In this document: one piece after another, positions 1,184 to 24,867 of the stretch
Position numbering within the stretch: the stretch's first letter is position 1
How the letters are laid out: each line of letters starts with the position of its first letter
Assembly (NCBI GenBank): GCA_013538855.1
Contig: JABXJS010000227.1
Span: 1-58,653, forward strand
From: Herpetosiphonaceae bacterium
GTDB lineage: Bacteria > Chloroflexota > Chloroflexia > Chloroflexales > Herpetosiphonaceae
Reading direction: 5' to 3'
Length of the DNA stretch: 58,653 nucleotides
The notes under the pieces: generated by a model
Seen by the model: the letters and a program-made list of their open reading frames with translations, nothing else
What the model was told of the DNA's origin: nothing
Databases searched by the model: none
Made by a program: the position numbers and the translations under genes

Positions 1184-3730
1184 TCACTGGTCGGCGGCGC
1201 TGGCCGCCTCCAGCGCGTACTCGATGGCGCGCTCCAGGCCAAGGGCGTGGCCGCGCGCCCAGGCAGCGGCCCAGGTGGACGGGTCAAGGGCGGACTGGGC
1301 CTGGATGATCTGGCGCTCGACGGTGGCCCGCCGCGAGGGCGGCAGGCGCGACCCGAGCGCTTTGCGCAGGGCCGTCGCCGCGCCGTACAGGCTGGCCGAC
1401 CGCTCCAGATTGCCGCTGGCCAGCGCGCAAGCCGCCAGCCCCTCCAGGCACTCGCTGACATCGGGACGGGTGCCCATATCGCGATACAGCAGCAGGCTCT
1501 GAAGGTAGTGCTGGGCCGCCTGGACAGGATCGCCCTGGGCATGGGCCACGTTGCCAAGGTTGGTCAGCAGCAGGGCGATGCCCCAGGTTTCGCCAAGCTG
1601 CTGAAACAGCTCCAGGCTTTCCTGAAACAGGTCGTGCGCCCTGGCATAGTCGCCGCAGTCATACGCAACATCGCCGAGATTGTTGAGGGCCAGCGCAATC
1701 GAGCGCGTATTGCCAAGCTGGCGCTTGATATCGAGGCTGCGCTGATACAGCACCGTGGCTTGCAGATCGTCGCCCTGCTCACGAGCGACGAGGCCGAGGT
1801 TGTTCAGCGCCGCCGCAATCGGGTAGGGATCACCTAGCTCCATACGCAGGTCCAGGCACTGGCTGAACCACGCAGTGGCCTGAGCGTAGCTGCCGCGGCG
1901 CAGGGCGACGCTGCCCAGCAGGGTCAGGGCGGCCGCGCTGCCCGCCTTGTCGCCAAGCTGGCGGTAAAGAGCAAGGCTGCGCTCGGAGCAGCACTGGGCC
2001 TGATCGAAATCGCCCTGCTCGACGGCCAGAATGCCCAGCGCACTCAGCGCCCTGGCGCGCAAATCCGGCGGCAGATCGCCGGCCTGATCGGCCTGGGCAA
2101 GCAGCGGCTCCAAGAAGCCGCGCGCCGCACTAAGCGCACCGCGCACAAACCAGAAGCGCCACAGCGCAGTGGCCAGGCGCAGGGCTGGCTCGACCGCTCC
2201 GCGAGCTTGCAGCCAGACCAGGGCCGCGCGCAAGTTGCCGTGCTCCCGGCCCAGCCGGTCGAACCAGAGCGCCTGCTCGGCACCGGTCAGGGCCGGCTCG
2301 GCGGCGCTGGCGAGGGCCAGAAAGTGCTCGGCGTGGCGCTGGGCGATCAGATCGTGCTCGCCGCTGGCTAGCAGCCGGTCGTGGGCGTAGGCGCGGATGG
2401 TGTCGAGCATGAAGAAGCGCGGCTCGTCGGCCCCAGAGTTCGGGTCAAGCTGGAGCAAGCTATTGTCGAGCAGCGTGGCCAGCCGAGGCAGGATCGGCGG
2501 CGCGCCAGGATCGGCCAGGGCCTGGGCGGCCGTCTCGGTCCAGCCATCCACAAACACAGATAGGCGGGCGAACAGCACCTGATCGTCTGGATCGAGCAGA
2601 TCGTGGCTCCAGTCAATCGCTCGCTGGAGGGTTTGCTGACGGGGCGGCAGGTCGCGGGCACCGTCGGTCAGCAGATGGAAGCGGTGGACGAGGCGCGTCA
2701 GCAGCGACTGCGGGCTAAGCAGCTTCATGCGCGCCGCCGCCAGCTCAATCGCCAGCGGCAGACCGTCGAGCTGGACGCAGATCGCCGCGATTGGCAGGGC
2801 GCTAGCCGTGGACAGGGCGACCTGCGGGTTCACCGCCTGGGCGCGGGCCAGAAACAGCGCAATCACCGGCAGCCGCCTTAGCTCGGCCAACGGCGGCAGC
2901 GCGGCCAGCGCAGGCAGCTCCAGCGGCGCGACCTGGTACTGGTGCTCGCCGGAGATGCGCAGCACCGAGCGGCTGGTCACCAGCAGCAGCAGGCCGGGAG
3001 CGGCGGCCAGCAGGTCGGCCACCAGCGGTGCGGCGGCCAAAATATGCTCGAAAGTATCCAGCACCAGCAGCACGCGACGGTTGTGCAGCGCCGTCGCCAG
3101 CTGGGCCAGCAGGGCCTGATCGCCGCCGACCTGCACAGCGAACGACTGAGCGAGCGTCGGCAGCAGCAGGGCCGGATCGGCCAGCGCGGCCAGCGAGATA
3201 ACGGTGATCTCATCGAACGCCGACGTCAGCCGCCGCGCAACATGCAGGGCCAGACGGGTTTTGCCCACACCAGGCGGGCCGACCAGCGTGACCAGGCGGA
3301 TGTCAGCGCGCAGCAAGCAGGCGCAGACAGCGGCGATATCGGCCTCGCGGCCAAATAGTCCGGTGGCTGGCACGGCGAGGGTTGGTGCGGCGTCGCTCAC
3401 GTCCTCCAGCACCTCGACGCGCCGCTCGGTGTGGCTCAAGCTAACGCTGCGCCCGGCCAGCGTTTCGCCGCGGGCGGCGGCCGCTAGCTCCAGCAGGCGC
3501 GCCACCAGCTCCGGCTCATGCTCAAGCGCCAGGGCTGGCACAAACAGCGCGGCCAGCACGGTGAGGTCGGGCAGGCGCTGATTGTGCTCAAGCCGCGAGA
3601 CCTGGCCGGTGCTGTAGCCAACCGCGATGGCTAGCTCGGTCTGGCTCAGCTGCGCGCGCTTGCGCAGATATTTCAAAAAGGCACCAAAGCTGGTAAAGGC
3701 ATCAGGGGATATGGCGCTTGATCGGACCAT
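1184..3730 (-). CDS. XRE-HTH / NB-ARC / TPR STAND regulator
   Basis: Predicted cytoplasmic STAND-type transcription regulator of 848 residues. Residues about 14-70 form a Cro/C1-type helix-turn-helix with the usual LSQTELA and GYSTGQVSRLE pattern. An NB-ARC-like ATPase follows, with Walker A GPPGVGKT at 151-158 and Walker B LLVLDTFEH near 221-229. The C-terminal third (about 590-820) consists of tetratricopeptide repeats. The ATPase probably switches between closed ADP and open ATP states on ligand sensing through the TPRs, as known for this class. The start is supported by GGAG at 3742-3739, 8 bases upstream. It is divergent from the large secreted protein at 3930 with a 200-base shared promoter region, so that gene is a plausible target; the ligand is unknown. 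Confidence 0.9.
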   Translation of the reverse strand: MVRSSAISPDAFTSFGAFLKYLRKRAQLSQTELAIAVGYSTGQVSRLEHNQRLPDLTVLAALFVPALALEHEPELVARLLELAAAARGETLAGRSVSLSHTERRVEVLEDVSDAAPTLAVPATGLFGREADIAAVCACLLRADIRLVTLVGPPGVGKTRLALHVARRLTSAFDEITVISLAALADPALLLPTLAQSFAVQVGGDQALLAQLATALHNRRVLLVLDTFEHILAAAPLVADLLAAAPGLLLLVTSRSVLRISGEHQYQVAPLELPALAALPPLAELRRLPVIALFLARAQAVNPQVALSTASALPIAAICVQLDGLPLAIELAAARMKLLSPQSLLTRLVHRFHLLTDGARDLPPRQQTLQRAIDWSHDLLDPDDQVLFARLSVFVDGWTETAAQALADPGAPPILPRLATLLDNSLLQLDPNSGADEPRFFMLDTIRAYAHDRLLASGEHDLIAQRHAEHFLALASAAEPALTGAEQALWFDRLGREHGNLRAALVWLQARGAVEPALRLATALWRFWFVRGALSAARGFLEPLLAQADQAGDLPPDLRARALSALGILAVEQGDFDQAQCCSERSLALYRQLGDKAGSAAALTLLGSVALRRGSYAQATAWFSQCLDLRMELGDPYPIAAALNNLGLVAREQGDDLQATVLYQRSLDIKRQLGNTRSIALALNNLGDVAYDCGDYARAHDLFQESLELFQQLGETWGIALLLTNLGNVAHAQGDPVQAAQHYLQSLLLYRDMGTRPDVSECLEGLAACALASGNLERSASLYGAATALRKALGSRLPPSRRATVERQIIQAQSALDPSTWAAAWARGHALGLERAIEYALEAASAADQ

Positions 3731-3757
3731 TGCTGCTTCTCCACGATCAGTGGGGCG

Positions 3758-3786
3758 ATTCTAGCCCAGCCGCTGGCTTTTGGCAA
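3758..3786 (-). promoter_or_regulatory. Sigma-70-type promoter of STAND regulator
   Basis: On the minus strand TTGCCA (3786-3781) and TAGAAT (3763-3758) are separated by 17 bases. This places transcription start about 20 bases before the start codon of the XRE/NB-ARC gene. Confidence 0.55.
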
Positions 3787-3929
3787 AAAATGGCATGCAT
3801 TGCGCGCCCAGATGGCGGATGCTAGTGACGAGGAGCGCATCCTCAAAGCAACGATACGATGGCGATCCTATCTGCGCCGCACCCCGCCACCGATCACACC
3901 AACACTCTTCTTGTTCTAGGGAGGCAGCT

Positions 3930-12541: not shown

Positions 12542-12689
12542 TGCACCTCCAAAAAACCAGCGTATCCAGCGATCTGCATAGAGTCTGCGCCTACACAAGC
12601 ACGTGTAGACGGTGGCAGTGGGCGAAGCTCCGGCGGTAGCGCCATCATAGCATGGCCCCAGCGCCAGCGGAAGAGCGAGCGAGGCGGTG

Positions 12690-12695
12690 TATAAT
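12690..12695 (+). promoter_or_regulatory. -10 element of BTAD regulator gene
   Basis: A perfect TATAAT lies here, so transcription should begin near 12702. This excludes the upstream in-frame GTG at 12687 as the start and leaves ATG 12726 or, less likely, ATG 12708. No good -35 is visible. Confidence 0.55.
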
Positions 12696-12725
12696 TTAGT
12701 CGTTCATATGTTTCAATGGTGCGCC

Positions 12726-15700
12726 ATGCCCGGTCTGCTACAGATCCATCTGCTGGGACAGTACAGCGTTCGCTACAACAATCGCCCTCTCACCACGCTC
12801 GATGCAGATCGAATCCGGTCGCTGCTGACATGGCTGCTGCTGCTGCGCGGAGCGCCAGTGCGGCGCCAAGAGCTGGCGTTTCGGCTATGGCCCGACACCT
12901 CAGAGCAGCAAGCGCGCACCAACCTACGCAACCTGCTCTATCAACTGCGCGCCGCGCTGCCGGAGCCAGACCGCTATCTAGAGACCACCCGCCACACCAT
13001 TGCTTGGCGCAAGGCCGGGCCATACACGCTCGATGTTGCTGAGTTTGAGCACGCCCTGCACGCTGCACAGCAGCTGCTGGCGGCTGGTGCGCCCAGCCGC
13101 CAGCAGGCGCTTGAGCGCGCAGTCCAGCTCTACAGCGGCGAGCTGCTTCCGGATGGCTATGATGAGTGGCTGGAGCCGCATCGCGAGCGGCTGCGCAGCG
13201 CCTATGCCCAAGCGCTACAGTCGCTTGTCGTGATCGCCGAGGAGGCCGGGGCCTGGCAGACGGCGCTGTGCTGGGCCGAGCAGCTACGTGGCCATGATCC
13301 GCTCAACGAGGCCACCTATAGCCAGCTGATGCGCCTGCATGCCTACAGCGGCAATCAGCAGGCCATTGAGCAGACGTATCAGCGCTGTGCACAGCTGCTG
13401 CAGGACGAGCTAAAGGTTGGGCCAAGCGCGGCCACCAGAACGAGCTATCAGCACTGGCGCGACCATGCAGCCAAAGCAGCGCTACAGCAGCCCAAACTCG
13501 AGCGGCAAGTCGCCTCAGCGCAGCGCTCGCGCCTCCCGGCCCTGCCTAGCGCGCTGATTGGGCGCAGCGCCGAGCTAGAGCAGCTTAACTCCATGGTGGC
13601 CGACCAGGCAGTGCGGCTCGTAACCATCACCGGGCCTGGCGGCGTTGGCAAGACCAGCCTAGCGCTAACGCTAGCCCAGCAGCTCATCGACAGCGGGCAC
13701 GTGCTAAGCTTTATTGCACTGACACCGCTCGAGTCTGTGGATCAGCTGCTTGCCGCCATTGCGACGGCACTCGGTGGCATCCCTGATCAGCAGCGTGTGC
13801 TGCTGGCGCAGGTTGCCAATCTGCTTCAGGCGCAGCCGCATATCCTGGTGCTAGACAATGCCGAGCACCTGCTTGACAGCGCAGCCGTGATCGCCGAGCT
13901 ACTGGAGCAGGCACCAGCAACAACCATACTTGTGACATCGCGGCGGCGGCTCCAGCTCCGTGATGAGTGGGTTTTCCGCCTCACCGGGCTACCAACACCT
14001 GCCCATACCGCCTCCGACGATCCGGCGGCATACAGCGCCATCCAGCTCTTTGTGCAGAGCGCACAACGGGCGACGCGCCAGTTTCAGCTCACAGCGCACA
14101 ATCAAACGGCGGTCGTGCAGATCTGTCAACTGGTTGCTGGGCTGCCGCTAGGGTTAGAGCTAGCGGCAGCCTGGACGCACATGCTTGAGCCAGCCGCGAT
14201 TGTGCAAGAGATCATCAGCAACCTCGATTTCCTCGCCTCAACTGCCCGCGATCTACCTACGCGTCACCGCAGCCTACGTGCAGTCTTTGAGCACTCCTGG
14301 CAGCTGCTAGCGGATCAAGAGCGCCTTTGTTTGGCGCGCCTAACCGTCTTTCGCGGCGCATTTACGCGCCAGTCGGCCGCAGCGGTTGCTGCTGCTTCGC
14401 TGCAGCTGCTGAGCCTGCTGGTCGATGCCTCGCTGGTGCATCGCACGGCGCATAGCCGCTACGACCTGCACCCGCTCATCCGCCAGTACGCGGCCCAGCA
14501 GCTGCAAGCACTGGCGCACGAGCAGGATACAACGCAGGCGCGCTTCATCGAACACTACACCGAGATGCTGGCAGAGTGGGAACAGCCGCTGTGCCAGCAC
14601 CATGACCGCCAGGCGCTGGCGGCCATCCGTGACGAGATTGACAACCTGCGCCAGTGGATCGACTGGGCGCTGGCCCTGCGGCGCTACAGCGACATCCAGC
14701 GGGGAGCGGAAACGCTGGCGCACTTTTATGAGGCCGTCGGCTGGATTCCCGAGGGTCAGCAGCGCTTCAGTGCAGCCGTGCAGCAGCTGGAGCTGCTGGA
14801 GCATAGCTCCGAATGGAGCGAGCTTGACGATCAACAACACCAGCAGATACAGCACACGCGCTGTCTGCTGCTTGCCAAGCAGGCCACCTTTGAGCAGCTG
14901 ATCGGCGATATCGCCCAGCTGCGCGCAACTCTCACAGCGCTGAGCACACTAGCGGAGCGCTGCGCTGCACCACAGTGGCAAAGCGATGTGCTGCGCATCT
15001 GGGGCACTGCGCTGCGCTACCTCGGCAAAGATGCGCAGGAGTGTGAGCAGGTGCTGGAGCAAGCAATCGCCGGCTACACAGCGACAGGCGATGTCCTGAA
15101 CACAATTCGCAGCATGTTTATGCTGGCAGATCTGCACACGCACCATGCGCGCACTGCGGCTGCGCTACACTACCTTGAGCGTGGCCTGGCGCTCAACCGC
15201 CAGCTTGGCAGCAGCTATATGCAGGCGCTGCTGCTCAGCGGCATGGGCGTTGCCTGTGTGCACCAGCAGCACACACAGCAGCAGGCCGCGCACTACTTCA
15301 AAGAAGCGCTGGAGCGCTTCCGTAGCATTGATGACGCACTCGGCATCCTGCGCACCGCCAATAATCTCGGCATGCTGTACTGCTGGATGGGCTACCCACA
15401 CGACGGCCTGGTCTACCTGCAGGAGGCGCGCAGCTACGCGCAGCGCTGTCAAAGCTTTATGGAGCACACCGGCGTGCTCGACAGCTTAGCCTCAACCTAC
15501 TTTGTGCTTGAGCGCTATAGCGAAGCGCACACAGCCTGGGTCGAGGCACTGAGCAGCGCCGAGCGACAAGGCTGGCTGCTTGGGCAGGGCTGGGCCTGCA
15601 ACGGCCTTGGCCGCATTGCGCTAGCACTTGGCGACTACGCCGTAGCTCAGCGCTACCTAGCCCAGGCTGTTGAGCATATGCAGGCGTCGGGCGAGCCACG

Positions 15701-16208
15701 CGAGATCGCCCGCTGCTGCGGCGATCTGGGCCGGCTGTATGCCCGCACGGATCAACCGGAGCAAGCGCTCGCGCTCTACGCGCAGGCCATACCGCAGCTC
15801 ACCGCGCTGAATGTGCTGCATCAAGCGGCACCGCTGCTCATCGAGCAAGCGCGCCTGCTTCAGCAGCAAGGTCGCAGCGACGAGGCGCTTGCCGCCGCCC
15901 ACACTGCTGTACAGCTAGCCAAGCAGATCGGTCAGCTCACCACCGTCTGGGAGGCCAGCCTTGTCCAGGCACATCTGACCTACCTTTATGTCAGCCATGA
16001 CCGCGGCTGGCAGCAGCTCCTGACACTGCTGGAGCAGGCAACCTCTCTACGCGAACGAGCGGCCGCACTCTACACGCTGTGGACGATTACCGCGAGCGAA
16101 CAGCTGCGCCGCTCGGCGCATGCGCTCTACACCACGCTCTACGCCACCACACCGCTAGCGCGCTACCGTGATCGGCTAGCACAGCTTGATGCGCATAGCG
16201 TGCCATAA
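12726..16208 (+). CDS. BTAD/SARP-like NB-ARC TPR transcriptional regulator
   Basis: Predicted large regulator of 1,160 residues, built like AfsR-type SARP proteins. The N-terminal 95 residues form a winged-helix/OmpR-like DNA-binding fold (HLLGQYSVRYNNRPL, then RLWPD and LRNLLYQLRAALP). A bacterial transcriptional activation domain of helical repeats follows to about residue 240. The NB-ARC ATPase has Walker A GPGGVGKTS near residue 301 and Walker B ILVLDNAEHLL near 374. The rest, from about 560, is TPR-rich (NNLGMLYCWMGY, GLGRIALALGDY). It probably activates nearby promoters in response to ATP and an unknown partner. It stands between a CPBP protease and a secreted lipase, which are candidate targets. 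ATG 12708 is the alternative start. Confidence 0.9.
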   Translation: MPGLLQIHLLGQYSVRYNNRPLTTLDADRIRSLLTWLLLLRGAPVRRQELAFRLWPDTSEQQARTNLRNLLYQLRAALPEPDRYLETTRHTIAWRKAGPYTLDVAEFEHALHAAQQLLAAGAPSRQQALERAVQLYSGELLPDGYDEWLEPHRERLRSAYAQALQSLVVIAEEAGAWQTALCWAEQLRGHDPLNEATYSQLMRLHAYSGNQQAIEQTYQRCAQLLQDELKVGPSAATRTSYQHWRDHAAKAALQQPKLERQVASAQRSRLPALPSALIGRSAELEQLNSMVADQAVRLVTITGPGGVGKTSLALTLAQQLIDSGHVLSFIALTPLESVDQLLAAIATALGGIPDQQRVLLAQVANLLQAQPHILVLDNAEHLLDSAAVIAELLEQAPATTILVTSRRRLQLRDEWVFRLTGLPTPAHTASDDPAAYSAIQLFVQSAQRATRQFQLTAHNQTAVVQICQLVAGLPLGLELAAAWTHMLEPAAIVQEIISNLDFLASTARDLPTRHRSLRAVFEHSWQLLADQERLCLARLTVFRGAFTRQSAAAVAAASLQLLSLLVDASLVHRTAHSRYDLHPLIRQYAAQQLQALAHEQDTTQARFIEHYTEMLAEWEQPLCQHHDRQALAAIRDEIDNLRQWIDWALALRRYSDIQRGAETLAHFYEAVGWIPEGQQRFSAAVQQLELLEHSSEWSELDDQQHQQIQHTRCLLLAKQATFEQLIGDIAQLRATLTALSTLAERCAAPQWQSDVLRIWGTALRYLGKDAQECEQVLEQAIAGYTATGDVLNTIRSMFMLADLHTHHARTAAALHYLERGLALNRQLGSSYMQALLLSGMGVACVHQQHTQQQAAHYFKEALERFRSIDDALGILRTANNLGMLYCWMGYPHDGLVYLQEARSYAQRCQSFMEHTGVLDSLASTYFVLERYSEAHTAWVEALSSAERQGWLLGQGWACNGLGRIALALGDYAVAQRYLAQAVEHMQASGEPREIARCCGDLGRLYARTDQPEQALALYAQAIPQLTALNVLHQAAPLLIEQARLLQQQGRSDEALAAAHTAVQLAKQIGQLTTVWEASLVQAHLTYLYVSHDRGWQQLLTLLEQATSLRERAAALYTLWTITASEQLRRSAHALYTTLYATTPLARYRDRLAQLDAHSVP

Positions 16209-16352: not shown

Positions 16353-18878
16353 ATGCACGCTCGGACCACCCAACAGCGCCTTGTGCTTACGCTAGCGCTG
16401 CTTATGCTCATCACCTGGCTGCCGCGAGTGAGCAGCCAGCCTGTAGCCGCCCAAGCGCGCCAGGCTGCGGGCACCTGTGCTAACGCAATCACCCGTGAGA
16501 CCTGGAAGATGGTCATCACCTACGATCTCCAAGACTCCGTCGCCGAAGGTGCGATCACAGCCGATGTAGAGCACCACGCCGCTGTGCAGGTTGTTTTTGA
16601 CACGCGCCAAGACTTTGTCGACAGCATCGAGTGGGAGCTGACCAGCATGACCGGCGACCTAAGCCTCAACGACCATGCTGAGCTGCACGACGAGTTTCCA
16701 TGGTGGACAGAGACCGTCGGGCAGGGCGAGCCGTCATACTTCGCTGGACGCCTAACGCTTGACCCTGTCGCCTGCACCTATGGAATGTGGGTCTACGGTG
16801 AAGTGATGGGCAACACAAACAACGATAACGGCACGGCAGAATGGCCCCAGCTAACCGTTTTGGACTTCACCATCTACAACCATCCTGTTGGCGAGGCCCC
16901 CGAGTTCTTCGAGGCGGAGGCGATTCCGCTATTTCTGGAGACGCCCGGCGGCGACCAGGACTTTACGCTGCCCTTCGACAACCACTCGACCAACGAAACC
17001 TACGGCTGGTACCACTACATCAAGGAAAATATCGGCGATCCGATCATGGCCTATGCGCAGGTAAGCTGGACTGTCGGCGGCATCAGTCAGCCGCCCACAG
17101 TCAGCGATGTAGTCTTTGAGCAGCAGTCAGTCAGCAATCCCAACCAGTGGATCAGCGTGCCGTCCGCAGGCACGTATGATGGCAACCTAGTGCAGATCAA
17201 GGCCACGCTGCACAATCCGCTAAGCAGCAACATCGCCGTGGAAGCGCGCTTCCTAGACAGCGCCACCGATCAACTGCTGCCAGATGGATCGCAGCAGCTG
17301 ATCTTACCGCCGCAGTCCACAACCACCACCACGCTGCTATGGGACACAAGCGATAAAGCGTGGCAGCCCGGCGGCAGCCCCAGTGCCCCAGCACCACACG
17401 CGCCCTACCGCATCAAGGTTCAGCTGCGCGCAGGCAACACCATCTATAGCCAGCAAACACGCCAGCTGAGCGTGCAGCCACGGCCGGTCATCCTCGTCCA
17501 TGGCCTCAACAGTAATCCAGAAACCTGGGCCAGCTATCCAAGCTTTCTCGCGGGCCTAAGCGCGCAGTGGAAGTCGTTCGCCATCGATACGCTGCGCACC
17601 GGCAACAGCCCCTGGCCACAGCAGTACAGCTACACGCTCAAAGAAAACGCCTATCTGCTCTTTAAGTACATCGAGCAGGTGCGCAAGCAAGAGAACGCTT
17701 GGCAAGTTGATATTGTGGCCCACTCGATGGGCGGTCTGATCTCGCGGCAGTACATCCACACCTTGATGCCGCTGGCGCGCATGGATAGCGAGACGCCTGT
17801 AGTGCGCAACCTGGTTATGCTTGGCACGCCCAACCAAGGCTCGGCCTGCGCCACAGCGCTGTACCTGCACAACTACCTTGAGGATATTCCGAACCTCAAC
17901 GCGCCGCGCGACTTAATGCCCAGCTCGGTCGCCACCTTCAACCAGCGCGTGACCAACGCGCGCGGCGTACACTTCTCGGTGAATTACGGTAACCTGATTC
18001 CATTTCCCTGCTCACCGCTGCCAAGTCAGCTGAGCGACGGCGTGGTCACAACCCAGAGCGCCCGCCACAGCTACACCGATGTGCAGAGCACCAGCAGCCA
18101 TCACCTGGCGATGACCAGCTCCGACAGCGACTTTAGCAGCTGGGTCGTTCCACACCTAACTGCGCCAGTCGCCACGCAAAAGCCGCAGCCGCAGGCCCTA
18201 AGCGCCCCAGCGGTAAGCGCAGCACTATCCGACACGATCCAGATCAGCCAGCTGCTAACCGATACCATCGCAGGTAACAGCAGTACAACCTTCAGCTTTA
18301 GCCTTGATGGCGTAGCCGGTGCCAGCCTGCAGCTGGTCGCGCCGCCGCAGGTGGCAGCAAGCTTGCTCGCACCAAGCGGCGAACAGGTCAGCACCCAAGA
18401 TGCCTATAGCCTGGACGCCCAACTTCCAGTGCGCGCCTTTGCTGTCAGCGCGCCCGAAGCAGGTATCTGGACACTCCAGCTCGAAAACATCGACGCTGAA
18501 GCTACGCCAGTCAGCCTGCTGATTGTCACCGCTGGCGACGCGCTGCTCGTTCAGCCGATCATCGGCACCCCTGAGCAGTCGCGCCCGCTTAGTGTTGTTG
18601 TTCAGCTGGCCGACAGCGGCACCCCCGTGCTCGGAGCCACTGTCATAGGCGAGCTGGTGCAGCCAAACGGCCAGAAAACGTCGCTTGAATTTCACGATGA
18701 CGGCACCGCAGGCGACAGCGTGGCGAACGATGGCAGCTACAGCGTGCTCATTGCGCCAACACTGGCGACCGGCGGCACAATCGTCGCGCACATCCAGACC
18801 AGCCAGGCGCAGCGGCTGCTCGTGGTCAGTCTGCCCGATATCAACTTCTCTGTTCAGTTGCCGTTTATCCGACGCTAG
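16353..18878 (+). CDS. Secreted lipase-like alpha/beta hydrolase
   Basis: Predicted exported hydrolase of 841 residues. A signal peptide (about residues 1-33) is followed by a long beta-rich N-terminal region. The alpha/beta-hydrolase core has an oxyanion-hole sequence ILVHGLNSNPETW near 380-390 and the nucleophile elbow AHSMGG with Ser458, as in triacylglycerol lipases and PGAP1-type enzymes. A histidine in SSHHLAM (about 582) is a candidate catalytic base. The C-terminal 200 residues contain a beta-sandwich with EFHDDGTAGDSVANDGSY, typical of a choice-of-anchor/VWA-associated fold. The last residues VQLPFIRR resemble the tail of the giant protein at 3930. GAGG at 16343-16346 supports the start. 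It probably acts on extracellular esters; substrate unknown. Confidence 0.85.
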   Translation: MHARTTQQRLVLTLALLMLITWLPRVSSQPVAAQARQAAGTCANAITRETWKMVITYDLQDSVAEGAITADVEHHAAVQVVFDTRQDFVDSIEWELTSMTGDLSLNDHAELHDEFPWWTETVGQGEPSYFAGRLTLDPVACTYGMWVYGEVMGNTNNDNGTAEWPQLTVLDFTIYNHPVGEAPEFFEAEAIPLFLETPGGDQDFTLPFDNHSTNETYGWYHYIKENIGDPIMAYAQVSWTVGGISQPPTVSDVVFEQQSVSNPNQWISVPSAGTYDGNLVQIKATLHNPLSSNIAVEARFLDSATDQLLPDGSQQLILPPQSTTTTTLLWDTSDKAWQPGGSPSAPAPHAPYRIKVQLRAGNTIYSQQTRQLSVQPRPVILVHGLNSNPETWASYPSFLAGLSAQWKSFAIDTLRTGNSPWPQQYSYTLKENAYLLFKYIEQVRKQENAWQVDIVAHSMGGLISRQYIHTLMPLARMDSETPVVRNLVMLGTPNQGSACATALYLHNYLEDIPNLNAPRDLMPSSVATFNQRVTNARGVHFSVNYGNLIPFPCSPLPSQLSDGVVTTQSARHSYTDVQSTSSHHLAMTSSDSDFSSWVVPHLTAPVATQKPQPQALSAPAVSAALSDTIQISQLLTDTIAGNSSTTFSFSLDGVAGASLQLVAPPQVAASLLAPSGEQVSTQDAYSLDAQLPVRAFAVSAPEAGIWTLQLENIDAEATPVSLLIVTAGDALLVQPIIGTPEQSRPLSVVVQLADSGTPVLGATVIGELVQPNGQKTSLEFHDDGTAGDSVANDGSYSVLIAPTLATGGTIVAHIQTSQAQRLLVVSLPDINFSVQLPFIRR

Positions 18879-18931: not shown

Positions 18932-18973
18932 AAAAAACAGCGCCGCCGCCTTGTTGAGAACAAGGCGGCGGCG
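18932..18973 (-). terminator. Intrinsic terminator between convergent genes
   Basis: A perfect 15-base-pair stem (18941-18955 with 18959-18973) has a GAG loop. Read on the minus strand it is followed by CTG and six Ts (18937-18932), ideal for ending the amine oxidase operon. It may also stop transcripts from the lipase on the plus strand. Confidence 0.9.
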
Positions 18974-18989
18974 TGCGCGCAGCTACACG

Positions 18990-20195
18990 CTAGCGCTGCT
19001 GGGCGGCGAAGGCATCGCGGGGAACGAGCAGATAGCTGTTCCAGTGCGACGACATATACGGGTCGTCCTCGTCGCGGGTGAGGTGATGGAACGAGAGGCC
19101 ATACCAGAGCACCGGGTCGGTGATGGTCTGATCATTGACAAAATCCGACACATCATCGCCACAGCCGCCACTGGTGGGGTTGTGGGTGGCCCATAGCTCG
19201 CAGGGGTTGTACTGCGTCACATACAGGTCGTTCTGTGTCCATGGCTCATTGGTGTTGCGGAAGTTGTGGTAGTTATCAGGAATAAGCTCGTAGGAGCGCT
19301 GATGGCCATCGCTGTTGAGGGCCGCCGTATTCTTGACGCGCCAGGAGCGGAAGGTGGTCGGCGAGACCTGCACTTTCTGCTCGCTCAGCATCGTGGACTG
19401 CACAAGCTGGCGCTGCTCGGTCTGATTGCCGCTGAACTCGATCTGCTCGACAACGTTGTTGCTGATGCCGTTGATATCGAAGTCTAGCCGCCAGTAGTAG
19501 TTATGCATATGCGACGTGCCATAGGGCTGGCCAGAGCTAAGCGTGCAGCGCTGCTGGCCGTCGATGCGCCAGCCGTGCTGCGGGTTGCTGGTGCACATCT
19601 GGAGCTGGCCGGTAGCGCCCACCGCTGGCTCGATGGTGCCATCGTCGTAGAAGAGCCAGTGGTTGATATAGTTGTAGGCCCCGATATGCGAGACGCTGAA
19701 CACCTGCAGGGCGCTGGCCTGCTTTTGGGTATCGTAGTACTTGTAGCCATAGCCAACGGGCACAATCGTCTTACAGATGATATTGCGGCCGTTGTTCTGC
19801 AGCAGCACGCCGCCAGGGCAGTCGGCAGGCGTCATATTGTTGAGATGCGAGTCGCCCAGGCCATAGTCCGACAGGTCGTGGAAGCGCGGAGTGCCAGGAT
19901 CGTAGGGCACGAAGATCTGGGCCAGATTGGCCTGGCTCAGCACAAAGACGGCCTCGCCAGCAGGCGACGTGTACTTGATCGAGCGCAGCACCACGCCCTC
20001 GCGGAAGCGCTCCTCCCAGCACATCGTCCAGCGTGCGCCGTTGGGCAGGCGCTCGTTGATGGTGAAGGCGGCGCTGGCGCAGGGCAGGCGATCAGTGGCA
20101 GCAGCAGGCGTGGCCATGGTGCGGCTGATCAAGGCGACGGCGACGAGGCCCAGCGCCACAAGCAAGCCAGGCATGAGCATTCGAAGTTTGCGCAT
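18990..20195 (-). CDS. Short copper amine oxidase-like catalytic-domain protein
   Basis: Predicted exported protein of 401 residues matching the C-terminal catalytic domain of copper amine oxidases, which oxidise primary amines to aldehydes, ammonia and peroxide using copper and a self-made topaquinone. Visible landmarks are a catalytic-base region HDLSDYG with D107; HMHNYYWRLD, matching the HxH copper pair, as H229 and H231; and FHHLTRDEDDPYM, matching the third copper histidine, as H371. The topaquinone site reads HIGAYNY: Tyr174 is present, but the consensus T-x-x-N-Y-D/E has H and A in place of T and N, and N after the Tyr. Length is well below the usual 600-700 because the N2/N3 domains are absent; a likely counterpart is encoded directly upstream, 9 bases away. 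An N-terminal hydrophobic segment suggests export. Confidence 0.8.
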   Translation of the reverse strand: MRKLRMLMPGLLVALGLVAVALISRTMATPAAATDRLPCASAAFTINERLPNGARWTMCWEERFREGVVLRSIKYTSPAGEAVFVLSQANLAQIFVPYDPGTPRFHDLSDYGLGDSHLNNMTPADCPGGVLLQNNGRNIICKTIVPVGYGYKYYDTQKQASALQVFSVSHIGAYNYINHWLFYDDGTIEPAVGATGQLQMCTSNPQHGWRIDGQQRCTLSSGQPYGTSHMHNYYWRLDFDINGISNNVVEQIEFSGNQTEQRQLVQSTMLSEQKVQVSPTTFRSWRVKNTAALNSDGHQRSYELIPDNYHNFRNTNEPWTQNDLYVTQYNPCELWATHNPTSGGCGDDVSDFVNDQTITDPVLWYGLSFHHLTRDEDDPYMSSHWNSYLLVPRDAFAAQQR

Positions 20196-20204
20196 AGCGG
20201 TACC

Positions 20205-20978
20205 TCAGTTATTCAGGCTGACAAACAGACCAGTTGACAGATCGACGATGGGCGTGATCGAGACCATCTCGCCGCTCGGCGTGGAGAAGAGCAGCTGGGC
20301 GCAGCGGTGGCTGCCGCAGCTCGCTGCGCGCACAAGCGGGCTGGAGCTCGGGTCGGTCAGCTGAATAAAGCCAGCGACCTCCACCTGGCTCGCATCTTTG
20401 AGATTGGTGCCAGTCAGCCGCGCAAACTCCTGGCTCAGCGTCTTGCCTGCCTGGGGATGCGTCATGACGATCTGCACCGCACGGTCGATCTCGTTCTGGG
20501 TCAGCGGGGGCTGCGCGCCGCGGGCGAAGTCGCTGCTATCGATCTTGCCGGTGGCCAGGTTGACCACATTCAAGATGACGCCATCGCGGCGGTAGTCGTA
20601 GAGGTACACATCGGCGCGGCGCTCCCACGCGCCGCGGGCGTAGGTGGCCTTGGACTCCTCGTGGCGCTCGGCAAACAGCAGCTCGAGCTGCTGATCGGCG
20701 GGCACGGCGGGATTATCCTTGGCGCTAACGCGCTGGCTGCCCAGGTACTTAAGGGCGATGCTAGCGGCCGTCTTCTGTTCATCGGTCGAGAGCGGCTCGG
20801 TGCCAGTGCGTCCCTTCGCGGGAGCAGCGACCACACCAACCGCCTGTTCGGGCATAAGGAGCTCCTGCTGAGCCTGCGCCGAGCGATCCGTCGGCAGCCA
20901 GCGCATAATTGCAAATGCAGCCAGCATGCCCAGCGCCACCAGCGCCACGTTCTTCAGCACAACCTGCGTTGAACGCAT
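20205..20978 (-). CDS. Exported protein, probable amine oxidase N-domain
   Basis: Predicted exported or membrane-anchored protein of 257 residues with one N-terminal hydrophobic segment. The start at 20978 is set by an upstream GGAGG. The middle (DVYLYDYRRDGVILNVVNLATGKI, shown here in short form: a strand-rich stretch ending NLATGKID) and the following PLTQNEIDRAVQIVMTHPQA resemble the small alpha/beta N2/N3 domains that precede the copper amine oxidase catalytic domain. The gene ends 9 bases before the catalytic-domain gene on the same strand. I infer that the two products work together as a split enzyme; a free PepSY-like inhibitor or chaperone is the alternative. No catalytic residues are recognised in this protein itself. 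Confidence 0.6.
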   Translation of the reverse strand: MRSTQVVLKNVALVALGMLAAFAIMRWLPTDRSAQAQQELLMPEQAVGVVAAPAKGRTGTEPLSTDEQKTAASIALKYLGSQRVSAKDNPAVPADQQLELLFAERHEESKATYARGAWERRADVYLYDYRRDGVILNVVNLATGKIDSSDFARGAQPPLTQNEIDRAVQIVMTHPQAGKTLSQEFARLTGTNLKDASQVEVAGFIQLTDPSSSPLVRAASCGSHRCAQLLFSTPSGEMVSITPIVDLSTGLFVSLNN

Positions 20979-21003
20979 ACCGCCTCCTTCCACAGAGCGT
21001 GAA

Positions 21004-21768
21004 CTAAGATGATGAAGCCAACACCGCCAGATGCTCGCCGGGCTGCAGCAGATGCACGCGCTCTGCGAGGCCGCGCTGGGCGGCAGCGTGCAGCAAGCGC
21101 TGCGGCGGCTCGTCCATTGGCTCGCGCGAGAGCCGAAACACGCCCCAGTGAATGGGGATCATGCAGCGTGCCTGCAGCTGCTCAAGCGCTACAAGCGCAT
21201 CCTCGGGGCTAAGGTGGTTAACCCGGAAGGCATCAGGGTTGTAGGCTCCAATCGGGATTAGGGCCAGATCGATCTGCCAGCGCGTGCCAACCTGTGGGTA
21301 CTCACGGCACGCGCCTGTATCGCCAGCAAAAAAGACCGTTGCCTCCGCCGTCTCCAGCATATAGCCAGCGTAGCCAGTGCGGCGGCTCCACGGCAAGCGC
21401 CCCGGCCAGTGTGCGGCGGGGGTGGCGGTGATCGTGACACCGTTGAGCGCCAGCGACTGCCACCAGTCCAGTGTATGAATGGTTTCAAAGCCCAGACGAC
21501 GGACAAATGGCACCGTGTAGGGCTGCACCACGACCGGCGTGCGGAGATCAAGCTGCCGCAGGCTGGCCGTATCCAGGTGGTCGTAGTGGGCGTGTGATAG
21601 CAAGATCGCGCTGAGCGGCCGTAGCGTAGCAGGCGTAGCTGGGAACGGTCGATAGCGCCGACCGAGCACGCCGAGGATGCGCCCAAAGATCGGGTCGGTC
21701 AAAAAGCGCTGCCCACCTAGCTCGATCAAATTCGTCGCATGGCCTAAGTACGTGACCCGGTTAGGCAT
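21004..21768 (-). CDS. Metallo-beta-lactamase-fold hydrolase
   Basis: Predicted cytoplasmic hydrolase of 254 residues in the metallo-beta-lactamase superfamily, closest by eye to the NAPE-PLD/UlaG-like group. The zinc motif HxHxDH is complete (H59, H61, D63, H64), followed by FFAGDTG and a late IPIHWGVF histidine. The start ATG 21768 is preferred because it lies inside the end of the aminopeptidase gene with an 8-base overlap, implying translational coupling. The next gene downstream begins 25 bases later. The substrate cannot be read from the sequence; phosphodiesters or lactones are typical for relatives. Confidence 0.85.
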   Translation of the reverse strand: MPNRVTYLGHATNLIELGGQRFLTDPIFGRILGVLGRRYRPFPATPATLRPLSAILLSHAHYDHLDTASLRQLDLRTPVVVQPYTVPFVRRLGFETIHTLDWWQSLALNGVTITATPAAHWPGRLPWSRRTGYAGYMLETAEATVFFAGDTGACREYPQVGTRWQIDLALIPIGAYNPDAFRVNHLSPEDALVALEQLQARCMIPIHWGVFRLSREPMDEPPQRLLHAAAQRGLAERVHLLQPGEHLAVLASSS

Positions 21769-22867
21769 TGACGAAGACGCCGTCTTTGGCAAACAGCTCG
21801 CCATCGACGTAGACCTCGCCGCCCTGGCGCAGATCGCAGACCATATCCCAGTGCAGGGCGGACTTGTTCAGACCGCCGGTCTCTGGGTAGGATGCGCCAA
21901 GCGCCATGTGCACCGTGCCGCCCATCTTCTCATCGAACAGAATATTCTTGGTGTAGTTGCGCACGTTGGGATTGTTGCCAAAAGCAAACTCGCCGAGACG
22001 CCGTGCGCCATCGTCGAGATTGAGCATCTGGTCGAGATACTCCTGGCCGGAGGCGGCGGTGGCCTGCACAACCACGCCATCTTCAAATGTCAGGCGCACA
22101 TCCTCAACCTGGCGGCCGTTCATCACCGCTGGGAAGGAGAAACGCACCGTGCCGTTGACCTTCGTCTCTTCTGGCCCCGTGAAGAACTCACCATCAGGGA
22201 AGTTGGAGTCGCCGGCGCAGTTGATGAAGGTGCGCCCAGCGATGCCCAGCGTCAGGTCAGTGCCATCGCCAAGCAGGCGAATCTCGCGCTTGCCGACCAG
22301 ATAGTCCACGAGGCGCTGCTGCTGCTGGGACAGCTTCTGCCACTCGGCAACCGGGTCCGCAGCGTCGAGGAAGCAGGCCCCATACACAAAGTCGCTGAAG
22401 TCCTCCAGGCTCATGTTCGCATCCTGGGCAAAGGCGTTGGTGGGGAAGAGCGTCACGCACCAGCGCATATCGCCGCGTGCCGAGCGATCCAGCATTGTGG
22501 ACAGCAGCTCGCGGCGGGCGCGCTTCGCGATCGCCTGGCGGGCTGGATCAATGCCGGATAGCTCACGTGTGTTGGTGGCTGCATCGATCGAGATGCGCAC
22601 GTCGGCCTGCTCCATCACCAGGCGATCCAACGGCGAGACCCAGCTCAGCTGCTCATCGGAGCCGTAGCGCATGCGCGTGCGGTCCACGCCTGGCAGCGTA
22701 ATGCTGGAAACAGGATGCGCACCGGCCTGCAGAATGGCGCGATACAGCTCCACAACCAGCGGCGTCGCCGCCGGCTGCGTCGTAATCGCCACAAATTCGC
22801 CTGGCTTAATCTTGAGCGAGTAGTTCACCAGGGTGTCAGCCAACTTTGCAACACGCGGATCGGACAT
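21761..22867 (-). CDS. M29-family (thermophilic type) aminopeptidase
   Basis: Predicted cytoplasmic metallo-aminopeptidase of 368 residues, the usual length for family M29 (AmpS, aminopeptidase T). It has the family's start (KLADTLVNYSLKIKPGE), an internal NFPDGEFFTGPEE segment carrying metal-ligand glutamates, and a terminal SALHWDMVCDLR with metal-binding His and Asp. It should remove N-terminal residues from peptides. GGAG precedes the ATG. It is the first gene of a compact minus-strand set that continues with the MBL hydrolase and the amine oxidase pair. It may be transcribed separately from pepF, whose terminator lies between them. Confidence 0.9.
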   Translation of the reverse strand: MSDPRVAKLADTLVNYSLKIKPGEFVAITTQPAATPLVVELYRAILQAGAHPVSSITLPGVDRTRMRYGSDEQLSWVSPLDRLVMEQADVRISIDAATNTRELSGIDPARQAIAKRARRELLSTMLDRSARGDMRWCVTLFPTNAFAQDANMSLEDFSDFVYGACFLDAADPVAEWQKLSQQQQRLVDYLVGKREIRLLGDGTDLTLGIAGRTFINCAGDSNFPDGEFFTGPEETKVNGTVRFSFPAVMNGRQVEDVRLTFEDGVVVQATAASGQEYLDQMLNLDDGARRLGEFAFGNNPNVRNYTKNILFDEKMGGTVHMALGASYPETGGLNKSALHWDMVCDLRQGGEVYVDGELFAKDGVFVNA

Positions 22868-22899
22868 GGCAACTCCTTAAAATGACACTGAGTAGATGC

Positions 22900-22933
22900 A
22901 AAAAAGACCAGCGGCTCGCACGGGAGCCGCTGG
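22900..22933 (-). terminator. Intrinsic terminator of pepF
   Basis: A perfect 10-base-pair stem (22908-22917 with 22924-22933) and 6-base loop, followed on the minus strand by TC and six Ts (22905-22900). It lies 8 bases past the pepF stop codon. Confidence 0.9.
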
Positions 22934-22940
22934 CACAGGA

Positions 22941-24749
22941 CTAGTCCATCATTGATTCCAGCTCGTCGAGCCAGTGGGCAAACATATCCATGGCTCGCTG
23001 CACTGGCTGCGGCGTGGTCATATCGACGCCAGCGCCCTGCAGCAGCTCAATCGACGACTTCGACGAGCCGCTGCGCAGGAACTGCACATAGTCGGCGGCC
23101 GCCCCCTCGCCCTCGCGCTTGATGCGATCGGTCAGCGCCAGCGCGGCGGAGATGCCGGTGGCGTACTGGTACACATAGAAGGCGCGGTAGAAGTGCGGGA
23201 TGCGCGCCCACTCGATGTCTAGGTCGCGATCGATCACCAGCTCTGGTCCGTAGTAGGCCTTGACCAGGCTAAGATACAGCTCGCTCAGGCTGTCGGCGGT
23301 GAGCGCCTGACCAGCCTCAACGCGGCGGTGGGCCTCCAGCTCGAACTCGGCAAACAATGTCTGGCGGAACAAGGTTGTGCGAATATCGTTCAGCTGCTGT
23401 GTGACAATCTGGAAGCGCAGGGCCGGGTTATCGGAGGTTTTGAGCAGGTGCTCGGCGAGCAGCGCCTCGTTGAGCGTCGAGGCGACCTCGGCTACAAACA
23501 GCGTGTAGTGGCCGTAGGCGTAGGGCTGCGTCGTGCGCGTAAAGTGCGAGTGCATGGCATGGCCCAGCTCGTGGGCCAGCGTGAACATGCTGTCGAGCGA
23601 GTCCTGGTAGTTCAGCAGGACAAACGGCGGCGAGGTATAGGCACCGCCCGAGTAGGCCCCAGAGCGCTTGCCCTGGTTCTCGTACTTGTCGATCCAGCGC
23701 GACTCCAGGCCGTTGCCCAGCATGTGCCCGTACTCTGCGCCAAGCGGCGCGACGCTCTCCAGCACCAGCGAGGCCGCATCGTCGAAGGCGAAGCGCAGCG
23801 GCGGCTGGTTGGTCAGCGGCGTATACAGATCGTAGGTGTGCAGCTCATCGAGGTTGAGCAGGCGCTTGCGCAGCCGCAGGTAGCGATGCATCTTATCGGC
23901 GTTCGCGCGCACGGTGGCGACCAAGTTCTCGTACACCGACAGCGGAATCTCGTTGGGCTTGAGCGCTGCCTCGAGCGCCGACTCATAGTTGTGCACACGG
24001 GCAGAGAAGATATCGCCGCGCACGCTTGCCGCATAGGTCGCCGCCAGCGTATTGCGGTACTGCTTATAGGTCGAGTGCAGGTTTTCGAACGCCTGCTTGC
24101 GCACGCTGCGGTCAGCGCTCTCCAGCAAGCTCGAGTAGCGCGCCTGCGTCAGATCGATCTGCTGGCCGCTGGCATCAACAACGCTTGGAAACTTCAGATC
24201 GGCGTCGTTGAAGGTGTTGAAGATGGAGCTTGCGCCACGGCGCACGTCCGCAGTCTGCGCCAGCACCGCCTCGACCTCGGCCGAGCGAATGTGTGGGCGC
24301 ATGCGAATCAGGTCATCGATCACCCGATGATAGACCTGGAGCTGTGCATCCTCGGCCAGATAGCCCTTGAGCTGCTCGTCGGTGAGCGTCAGCAGCTCTG
24401 GATCGATCCAGGCTGTCGCGGCCCCAACCTTGGCGCTGAGCGAGCTAGCGCGCTCCTCAAGCGCCTGATAGTGGGTGTTGGTCGTATCTTCGTCGCCGCG
24501 CAGATAGCCATATACCATCACCTGCTCGGTGAGCATCCAGATGCGATCTTGCAGCTGAAGCACCTTGAGCAGCGCCTGCGGGCCGGTGCTCAGCGTCCCC
24601 TGCAGAGCCTGGATCTCTGGCAGCAGCTGGGTGATCTGCGCGAAGTCGGCCTCCCACGCTGCTTCATCAGCATAGAGCACCGATAGATCCCAGGTATCTT
24701 CCACGGCTATCGAGTCACGGCTAGCCAGTGGCTTGGTTAAAGTTGTCAT
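22941..24749 (-). CDS. pepF: Oligoendopeptidase F (M3 family)
   Basis: Predicted cytoplasmic zinc oligopeptidase of 602 residues, normal for PepF. The active site HELGHAMH places zinc ligands at H393 and H397 with catalytic E394. A downstream EVASTLNEALL supplies the third ligand glutamate, and a YQYATGISAA segment near the C-terminus matches the family. It should degrade short peptides, a role that fits the aminopeptidase downstream. The start at 24749 is chosen over an upstream in-frame start because GGAG precedes it at six bases and the protein then begins like other PepF proteins. An extended -10 promoter lies at 24785-24793. Confidence 0.95.
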   Translation of the reverse strand: MTTLTKPLASRDSIAVEDTWDLSVLYADEAAWEADFAQITQLLPEIQALQGTLSTGPQALLKVLQLQDRIWMLTEQVMVYGYLRGDEDTTNTHYQALEERASSLSAKVGAATAWIDPELLTLTDEQLKGYLAEDAQLQVYHRVIDDLIRMRPHIRSAEVEAVLAQTADVRRGASSIFNTFNDADLKFPSVVDASGQQIDLTQARYSSLLESADRSVRKQAFENLHSTYKQYRNTLAATYAASVRGDIFSARVHNYESALEAALKPNEIPLSVYENLVATVRANADKMHRYLRLRKRLLNLDELHTYDLYTPLTNQPPLRFAFDDAASLVLESVAPLGAEYGHMLGNGLESRWIDKYENQGKRSGAYSGGAYTSPPFVLLNYQDSLDSMFTLAHELGHAMHSHFTRTTQPYAYGHYTLFVAEVASTLNEALLAEHLLKTSDNPALRFQIVTQQLNDIRTTLFRQTLFAEFELEAHRRVEAGQALTADSLSELYLSLVKAYYGPELVIDRDLDIEWARIPHFYRAFYVYQYATGISAALALTDRIKREGEGAAADYVQFLRSGSSKSSIELLQGAGVDMTTPQPVQRAMDMFAHWLDELESMMD

Positions 24750-24784
24750 CAGTTTCTCCGCTGGTGTGGAATGATCGTTTTTCA

Positions 24785-24793
24785 ATTGTAGCA
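24785..24793 (-). promoter_or_regulatory. Extended -10 promoter of pepF
   Basis: On the minus strand the bases read TGC-TACAAT (24793-24785), matching the extended -10 pattern seen before other operons in this window. No clear -35 is present. Confidence 0.45.
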
Positions 24794-24867
24794 TATATCA
24801 ATATAGATATGGACCAGCCGCTGCAAAACTGCTAGAGAACTGCTAATCGACGGCGCGCAATCCGGCG

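Follow-up and report, generated by a model that had tools for sequence, protein, structure and literature searches.

We propose that two adjacent genes of a Herpetosiphonaceae bacterium encode a two-subunit, extracytoplasmic copper amine oxidase, in which the cofactor site has been rebuilt without its Asn and the quinone is most likely topaquinone. We put the probability of this reading at roughly 0.6. The genes were analyzed within a DNA stretch of 58,653 nucleotides (the window). One encodes the catalytic (D4) domain alone and the other the D2-D3 (N2-N3) module. In AGAO and ECAO, D2-D3-D4 form one chain, whereas the window has two genes, with D2-D3 in trans.

Locus Organization

The D4 gene occupies positions 18990..20195 on the minus strand and encodes a stand-alone protein of 401 residues with an N-terminal hydrophobic leader. 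The D2-D3 gene (20205..20978, minus strand) encodes a separate exported or anchored protein of 257 residues, and its stop codon lies 9 bases before the D4 start codon. We prefer the ATG at 20978 as the D2-D3 start because AAGGAGG precedes it, in agreement with the end coordinate given in the preliminary description; an alternative mechanical GTG start at 20993 would yield 262 residues. The D4 gene carries GAGG 7 bases before its ATG. Directly 3' of the D4 gene, a pattern scan detected a strong terminator-like hairpin with 15 pairs followed by a T-run (18941..18973, minus strand). Such sites are as numerous in the stretch as in shuffled sequence, yet the stem in question is long and its placement favorable.

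Genes for an M3-type peptidase (assigned by reading), an M29 aminopeptidase, and an MBL-fold hydrolase lie upstream of the pair on the same strand (21004-24794). The MBL-fold gene (21004..21804, minus strand; PF12706, E = 2.1e-37) has no counterpart in the syntenic Herpetosiphon stretch. The aminopeptidase gene, which overlaps it (21761..22867, minus strand; PF02073, E = 1.7e-91), is syntenic in Herpetosiphon at 66-67% identity, as is the M3-type peptidase gene, and this synteny is confined to the window's family. A terminator-like hairpin at 22934-22907 parts the first peptidase from the remaining genes. Convergent with the pair is a gene for an exported alpha/beta hydrolase of 841 residues (16353-18878, plus strand; lipase/PGAP1-like) with a C-terminal 'choice-of-anchor X' domain. 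On the same strand, positions 12687-16208 encode a 1173-residue protein that reads as a SARP/BTAD-type regulator with an NTPase and TPR repeats.

Identity of the Two Proteins

The 401-residue ORF matched PF01179 with an E-value of 2.7e-41, aligning with positions 9-403 of the 407-position profile; the score of 142 bits compares with a cut-off of 27. It contains the hydrophobic leader and the enzyme domain only, with no other Pfam match, which bears out the earlier view that the catalytic domain is encoded alone. The genome has no other PF01179 gene. The AlphaFold2 model of D4 (pLDDT 89.8, pTM 0.87) superimposed on AGAO with Z = 37.5 and an rmsd of 2.1 Å over 343 residues, at 24% identity. The D4 fold of the Pichia pastoris lysyl oxidase (1n9e, 1rky, 1w7c), a one-chain enzyme, also matched (Z = 30).

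Two features set the D4 of the split family apart from the fused enzymes. The Cys39/Cys59 pair is special to the split family and its decayed copies, and is absent from fused enzymes. The second dimer-arm stretch comprises 52-58 residues in 64 of 65 split-family D4 proteins versus 61-62 in fused enzymes, in which this region is about 8 residues longer; the first measures 32-41 residues versus 39-41.

Single-sequence searches with the partner were marginal (NF008559, E = 7.5e-6; Pfam AGAO-like_N2, E = 0.1). Among 57 partner sequences, the curated Pfam N3 profile matched none and N2 matched two at E <0.01. When the alignment of these 57 sequences was compared with solved structures, amine oxidases ranked first (ECAO, E = 0.0026). 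In hhalign, the partner family matched the N-terminal region of the fused enzymes with a probability of 98.2% (E = 2.8e-14, 183 columns). The partner model (pLDDT 83.8) superimposed on HPAO residues 19-208, spanning both D2 and D3, with Z = 10.8 and an rmsd of 3.3 Å over 177 residues, and the top 50 Foldseek matches were all amine oxidases. A YpmB/CD1622-like fold (Z = 7.4-7.6) covered one small domain and was set aside. Profile-profile and fold comparisons thus firmly identify the partner as the D2-D3 module of copper amine oxidases. The profile alignment to copper amine oxidase domains named in the preliminary description places both proteins, D4 through PF01179 and its partner at the profile-profile level, and the N2/N3-like protein that it had recognized directly upstream is confirmed.

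Conservation of the Two-Gene Form

A scan of about 85,000 genomes yielded 75 loci distributed over Chloroflexota (Herpetosiphon and others), Actinomycetota (many Streptosporangiaceae, Streptomyces, and Actinomadura), Gammaproteobacteria (Thiotrichaceae, Methylococcaceae, and Granulosicoccaceae), and Myxococcota (one Corallococcus). In 67 of the 75 loci, a separate ORF for D2-D3 (E = 5e-31 or better) precedes the D4 gene in the same orientation, with a median inter-domain distance of 94 bp in the linked loci. The first partner profile was built from Chloroflexota alone, and it recovered the partners in the other phyla unaided. Both genes are present in six other genomes of the window's family (59-60% and 43-45% identity). 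Across the phyla, no conserved operon gene was found among the locus neighbors beyond the D2-D3/D4 pair.

Eight loci have no adjoining partner. We searched the genomes of six, and three of them carry the partner elsewhere (both Thiothrix and one Cocleimonas), where it adjoins further D4 copies. The D2-D3 gene was undetected by these genome searches in Corallococcus, in Isoptericola, and in the genome of locus L114. D4 may act alone in Corallococcus and Isoptericola, since no D2-D3 gene was detected there.

A sequencing frameshift or a broken gene could in principle mimic such a split, and a frameshift does occur inside the D2-D3 gene of another genome (L008/L047), in a different place; nothing in the window points to one. 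Each gene has its own start codon, ribosome site, and leader, and two ORFs recur at the 67 loci across phyla, including the finished genome of Herpetosiphon aurantiacus DSM 785 (L044). An artefact is thus hardly conceivable. A chance ORF was likewise ruled out by homology and residue invariance. Both outcomes that the preliminary description had named as counting against it went the other way: linkage is retained among the homologues, and close relatives show no fused version. A quick tree placed the fused enzymes from the window's phylum in a single, fully supported clade; the placement of L107 was unsure owing to long branches. At the level of sequence, there is firm support for an old, conserved, and widespread division of copper amine oxidase into two genes.

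The L008/L047 record is titled as a Rubrobacter sp. MAG, and its D4 is 50% identical to that of the window. The motif reads G-I-G-K-Y-N, with Lys ahead of the Tyr. This genome is also listed in the window's class, and the Rubrobacter name may be wrong.

Cofactor Site and Active-Site Residues

The motif of the window D4 is F-S-V-S-H-I-G-A-Y-N-Y, in which Tyr174 is the precursor Tyr. Against the topaquinone consensus T-x-x-N-Y-D/E, the segment H-I-G-A-Y-N keeps the Tyr alone of the four named positions; AGAO Asn381 and the consensus Thr are both replaced. The codons of Ala173-Tyr174-Asn175 (19671..19679, minus strand) correspond in the alignments to the canonical Asn-Tyr-Asp/Glu. Of 21 fused enzymes from the same phylum, 20 carry the consensus. 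The change, already noted for this protein, proved to be family-wide. Among 65 aligned D4 proteins, 63 lack the Asn preceding the precursor Tyr, and most have Trp (34) or Ala (24) there. The two that keep it (L114 and L115) are outlying proteins without an adjoining partner. The replacement is clade-specific, with Trp in all Actinomycetota and Ala in most others. The consensus Thr is lost in 64 of 65, and Gln, Glu, or His stands there in 51. The residue after the Tyr is Asp or Glu in 13 and another in 52.

The remaining catalytic equipment is invariant (65/65): the copper ligands His229 and His231 (His229-Met230-His231 codons, 19503..19511) and His371 (19083..19085), the catalytic base Asp107 (AGAO Asp298; 19875..19877), the quinone-holding Tyr98 (AGAO Tyr284/HPAO Tyr305; 19902..19904), and Gly172, Tyr174, and Tyr176 (all codons on the minus strand). 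The retention of the copper His, the catalytic Asp, and the precursor Tyr, first read from this one protein, thus extends to the whole family. In known enzymes, the counterpart of Tyr98 holds the quinone via a short hydrogen bond. The window pair therefore resembles AGAO and ECAO in its D4 fold, copper ligands, catalytic Asp, quinone-holding Tyr, and precursor Tyr, and in the D2-D3 fold of the partner. It is not an ordinary copper amine oxidase, because the consensus and the single chain are missing, though the fold and catalytic equipment are present.

Mutants of known enzymes indicate what such a site can do. HPAO N404A contains 5-10% topaquinone, and biogenesis in HPAO E406Q is tenfold slower (PMC3382800). 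AGAO N381A (PDB 7wir, 7wis) has Ala exactly where the window has Ala173; it makes topaquinone at 1/180 of the rate and turns over with a kcat of 1/160 (PMC9491219). Asn-to-Ala mutants thus still form topaquinone, poorly, which implies that a site of this kind can make it. AGAO N381A is a crippled one-chain mutant, whereas the change in the window is natural and old, and the Thr and Asp/Glu positions are altered too. The long retention of the Asn-less site implies either some form of compensation or a change of chemistry within the family. We infer that the polar residue at the Thr position compensates for the lost Asn.

The cofactor might instead be something other than topaquinone, or copper with an unmodified or cross-linked Tyr, and the pair might then catalyze something different from ordinary primary-amine oxidation. 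The losses of Asn, Thr, and Asp/Glu counted above would fit this alternative, as would the clade-specific Trp/Ala position, whose pattern resembles that of a site under separate selection. The Asn of characterized enzymes guides the quinone to its productive position (PMC9491219), and topaquinone may not be the cofactor because the Asn mutants that provide the precedent are poor enzymes. However, the residues that equip an enzyme for topaquinone chemistry (the base, the Tyr that holds the quinone, and the copper ligands) are all invariant, and topaquinone is still produced when the Asn alone is mutated in known enzymes. We consider this alternative unlikely. The preliminary description had left a choice between a divergent cofactor chemistry and an inactive copper-binding relative. 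The former may hold and is not required, because the Asn-to-Ala mutants form topaquinone slowly (PMC3382800, PMC9491219); the latter is disfavored by the evidence that follows.

Decayed D4 Copies and Domain Fusions

In most Gammaproteobacteria of the set, the live D4 gene is separated from its D2-D3 partner gene by a D4 copy that has lost its active site (L048, L049 at 2716-3918, L052, L054, L055, L058, L063, L064, L082, L097-L102, L104, and L111). In the alignment of these 17 copies, the H-x-H motif is retained in none, the Asp in one, and the Tyr in two. They keep two cysteines common to fused enzymes. A decayed D4 could possibly serve as a dead subunit in an asymmetric complex. In the same class, the live D4 carries long tails with Ig-like, cadherin-like, or F5/8-type C domains (L054, 3947-8107; L058, 3956-8314; L064, 3983-6307; L055, 3866-6760; L049, 3974-7741). 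In Cocleimonas (L058, L063), a further D4 ORF directly follows the live D4.

These proteins bear on whether the split D4 could be a copper-binding relative without catalysis, acting as a scavenger, a sensor, or a structural matrix protein. The degenerate consensus, the sister copies plainly devoid of an active site, and the fusions, which suggest a matrix or adhesion setting, would all suit such a role. Against it, Asp107 and Tyr98, which are important to quinone chemistry but do not coordinate copper, are kept in 65 of 65 proteins, which argues that the split D4 is probably active. The decayed neighbors have lost nearly all of the residues needed for catalysis while the window's family has kept them, and this contrast further disfavors an inactive relative. 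A non-catalytic role is thus quite improbable. On sequence grounds, we regard the window D4 as having a naturally rebuilt cofactor site that is more likely active than dead.

Proposed Mechanism

In the two-subunit amine oxidase that we propose, H229, H231, and H371 of D4 would hold one Cu(II), which together with O2 would convert Tyr174 by oxidation into a quinone, most likely topaquinone. Made from the same message, the D2-D3 protein would likewise be exported, perhaps being kept as a membrane anchor. It may dock on D4 in trans, filling the place that D2-D3 takes in the one-chain enzymes, and could thereby tether the enzyme to the cell surface and shape the entrance to the substrate channel. 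The cofactor site would be rebuilt around a small or flat residue in place of Asn (Ala in the window, Trp in Actinomycetota), and the polar His, Gln, or Glu at the Thr position probably helps. The quinone would then be made and held differently, for another amine substrate or rate.

The Asn beside the precursor Tyr has been called strictly conserved, and mechanism papers treat it as the quinone-steering residue. A natural Asn-less family with Ala or Trp in dozens of species offers a ready test of what cofactor biogenesis needs, and the making or use of the cofactor has apparently been solved a second way in nature. The split also lets the role of D2-D3 in folding, substrate entry, or anchoring be probed by omission and add-back. 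The dead D4 beside a live one suggests asymmetric assemblies, whereas the structurally characterized members are all homodimers (PMC3382800). A broader and more tentative reading is that these proteins form an undescribed clade built from separate subunits (D2-D3 and D4, with a dead D4 too in Gammaproteobacteria), which would assemble asymmetrically and carry an Asn-free Tyr-derived cofactor made by rebuilt or new chemistry. Our literature searches, which covered few subscription papers, turned up no bacterial amine oxidase described as split or Asn-less, which is weak evidence of novelty. Plant CuAO clade I/CuAO-zeta comprises PF01179 proteins reported to lack T/S-x-x-N-Y-D (PMC12058724). We liken them by description; they are eukaryotic and one-chain, whereas the window proteins are bacterial and come from two genes.

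Predicted Export and Genomic Setting

An N-terminal hydrophobic export or anchor segment, called by a simple scale, is present in 64 of 68 partners; counting the decayed copies, 88 of 95 D4 proteins have one as well. A lipobox occurs in only 4 of 68 partners, so anchoring as a lipoprotein is not the rule. Together with the Ig-, cadherin-, and F5/8-type fusions, the hydrophobic segments point to a role at the cell surface or in the matrix. A role outside the cytoplasm, acting on protein amines, would suit an exported enzyme such as that predicted for the window; the likeness to the Pichia lysyl oxidase is one of fold.

The glgB-side neighbor is common to 19 actinobacterial loci. In L059, L066, and other Streptosporangiaceae, the pair lies between a maltokinase gene and glgB (Pfam assignments), in what seems to be an alpha-glucan synthesis operon; this maltokinase/GlgB setting is confined to Streptosporangiaceae.
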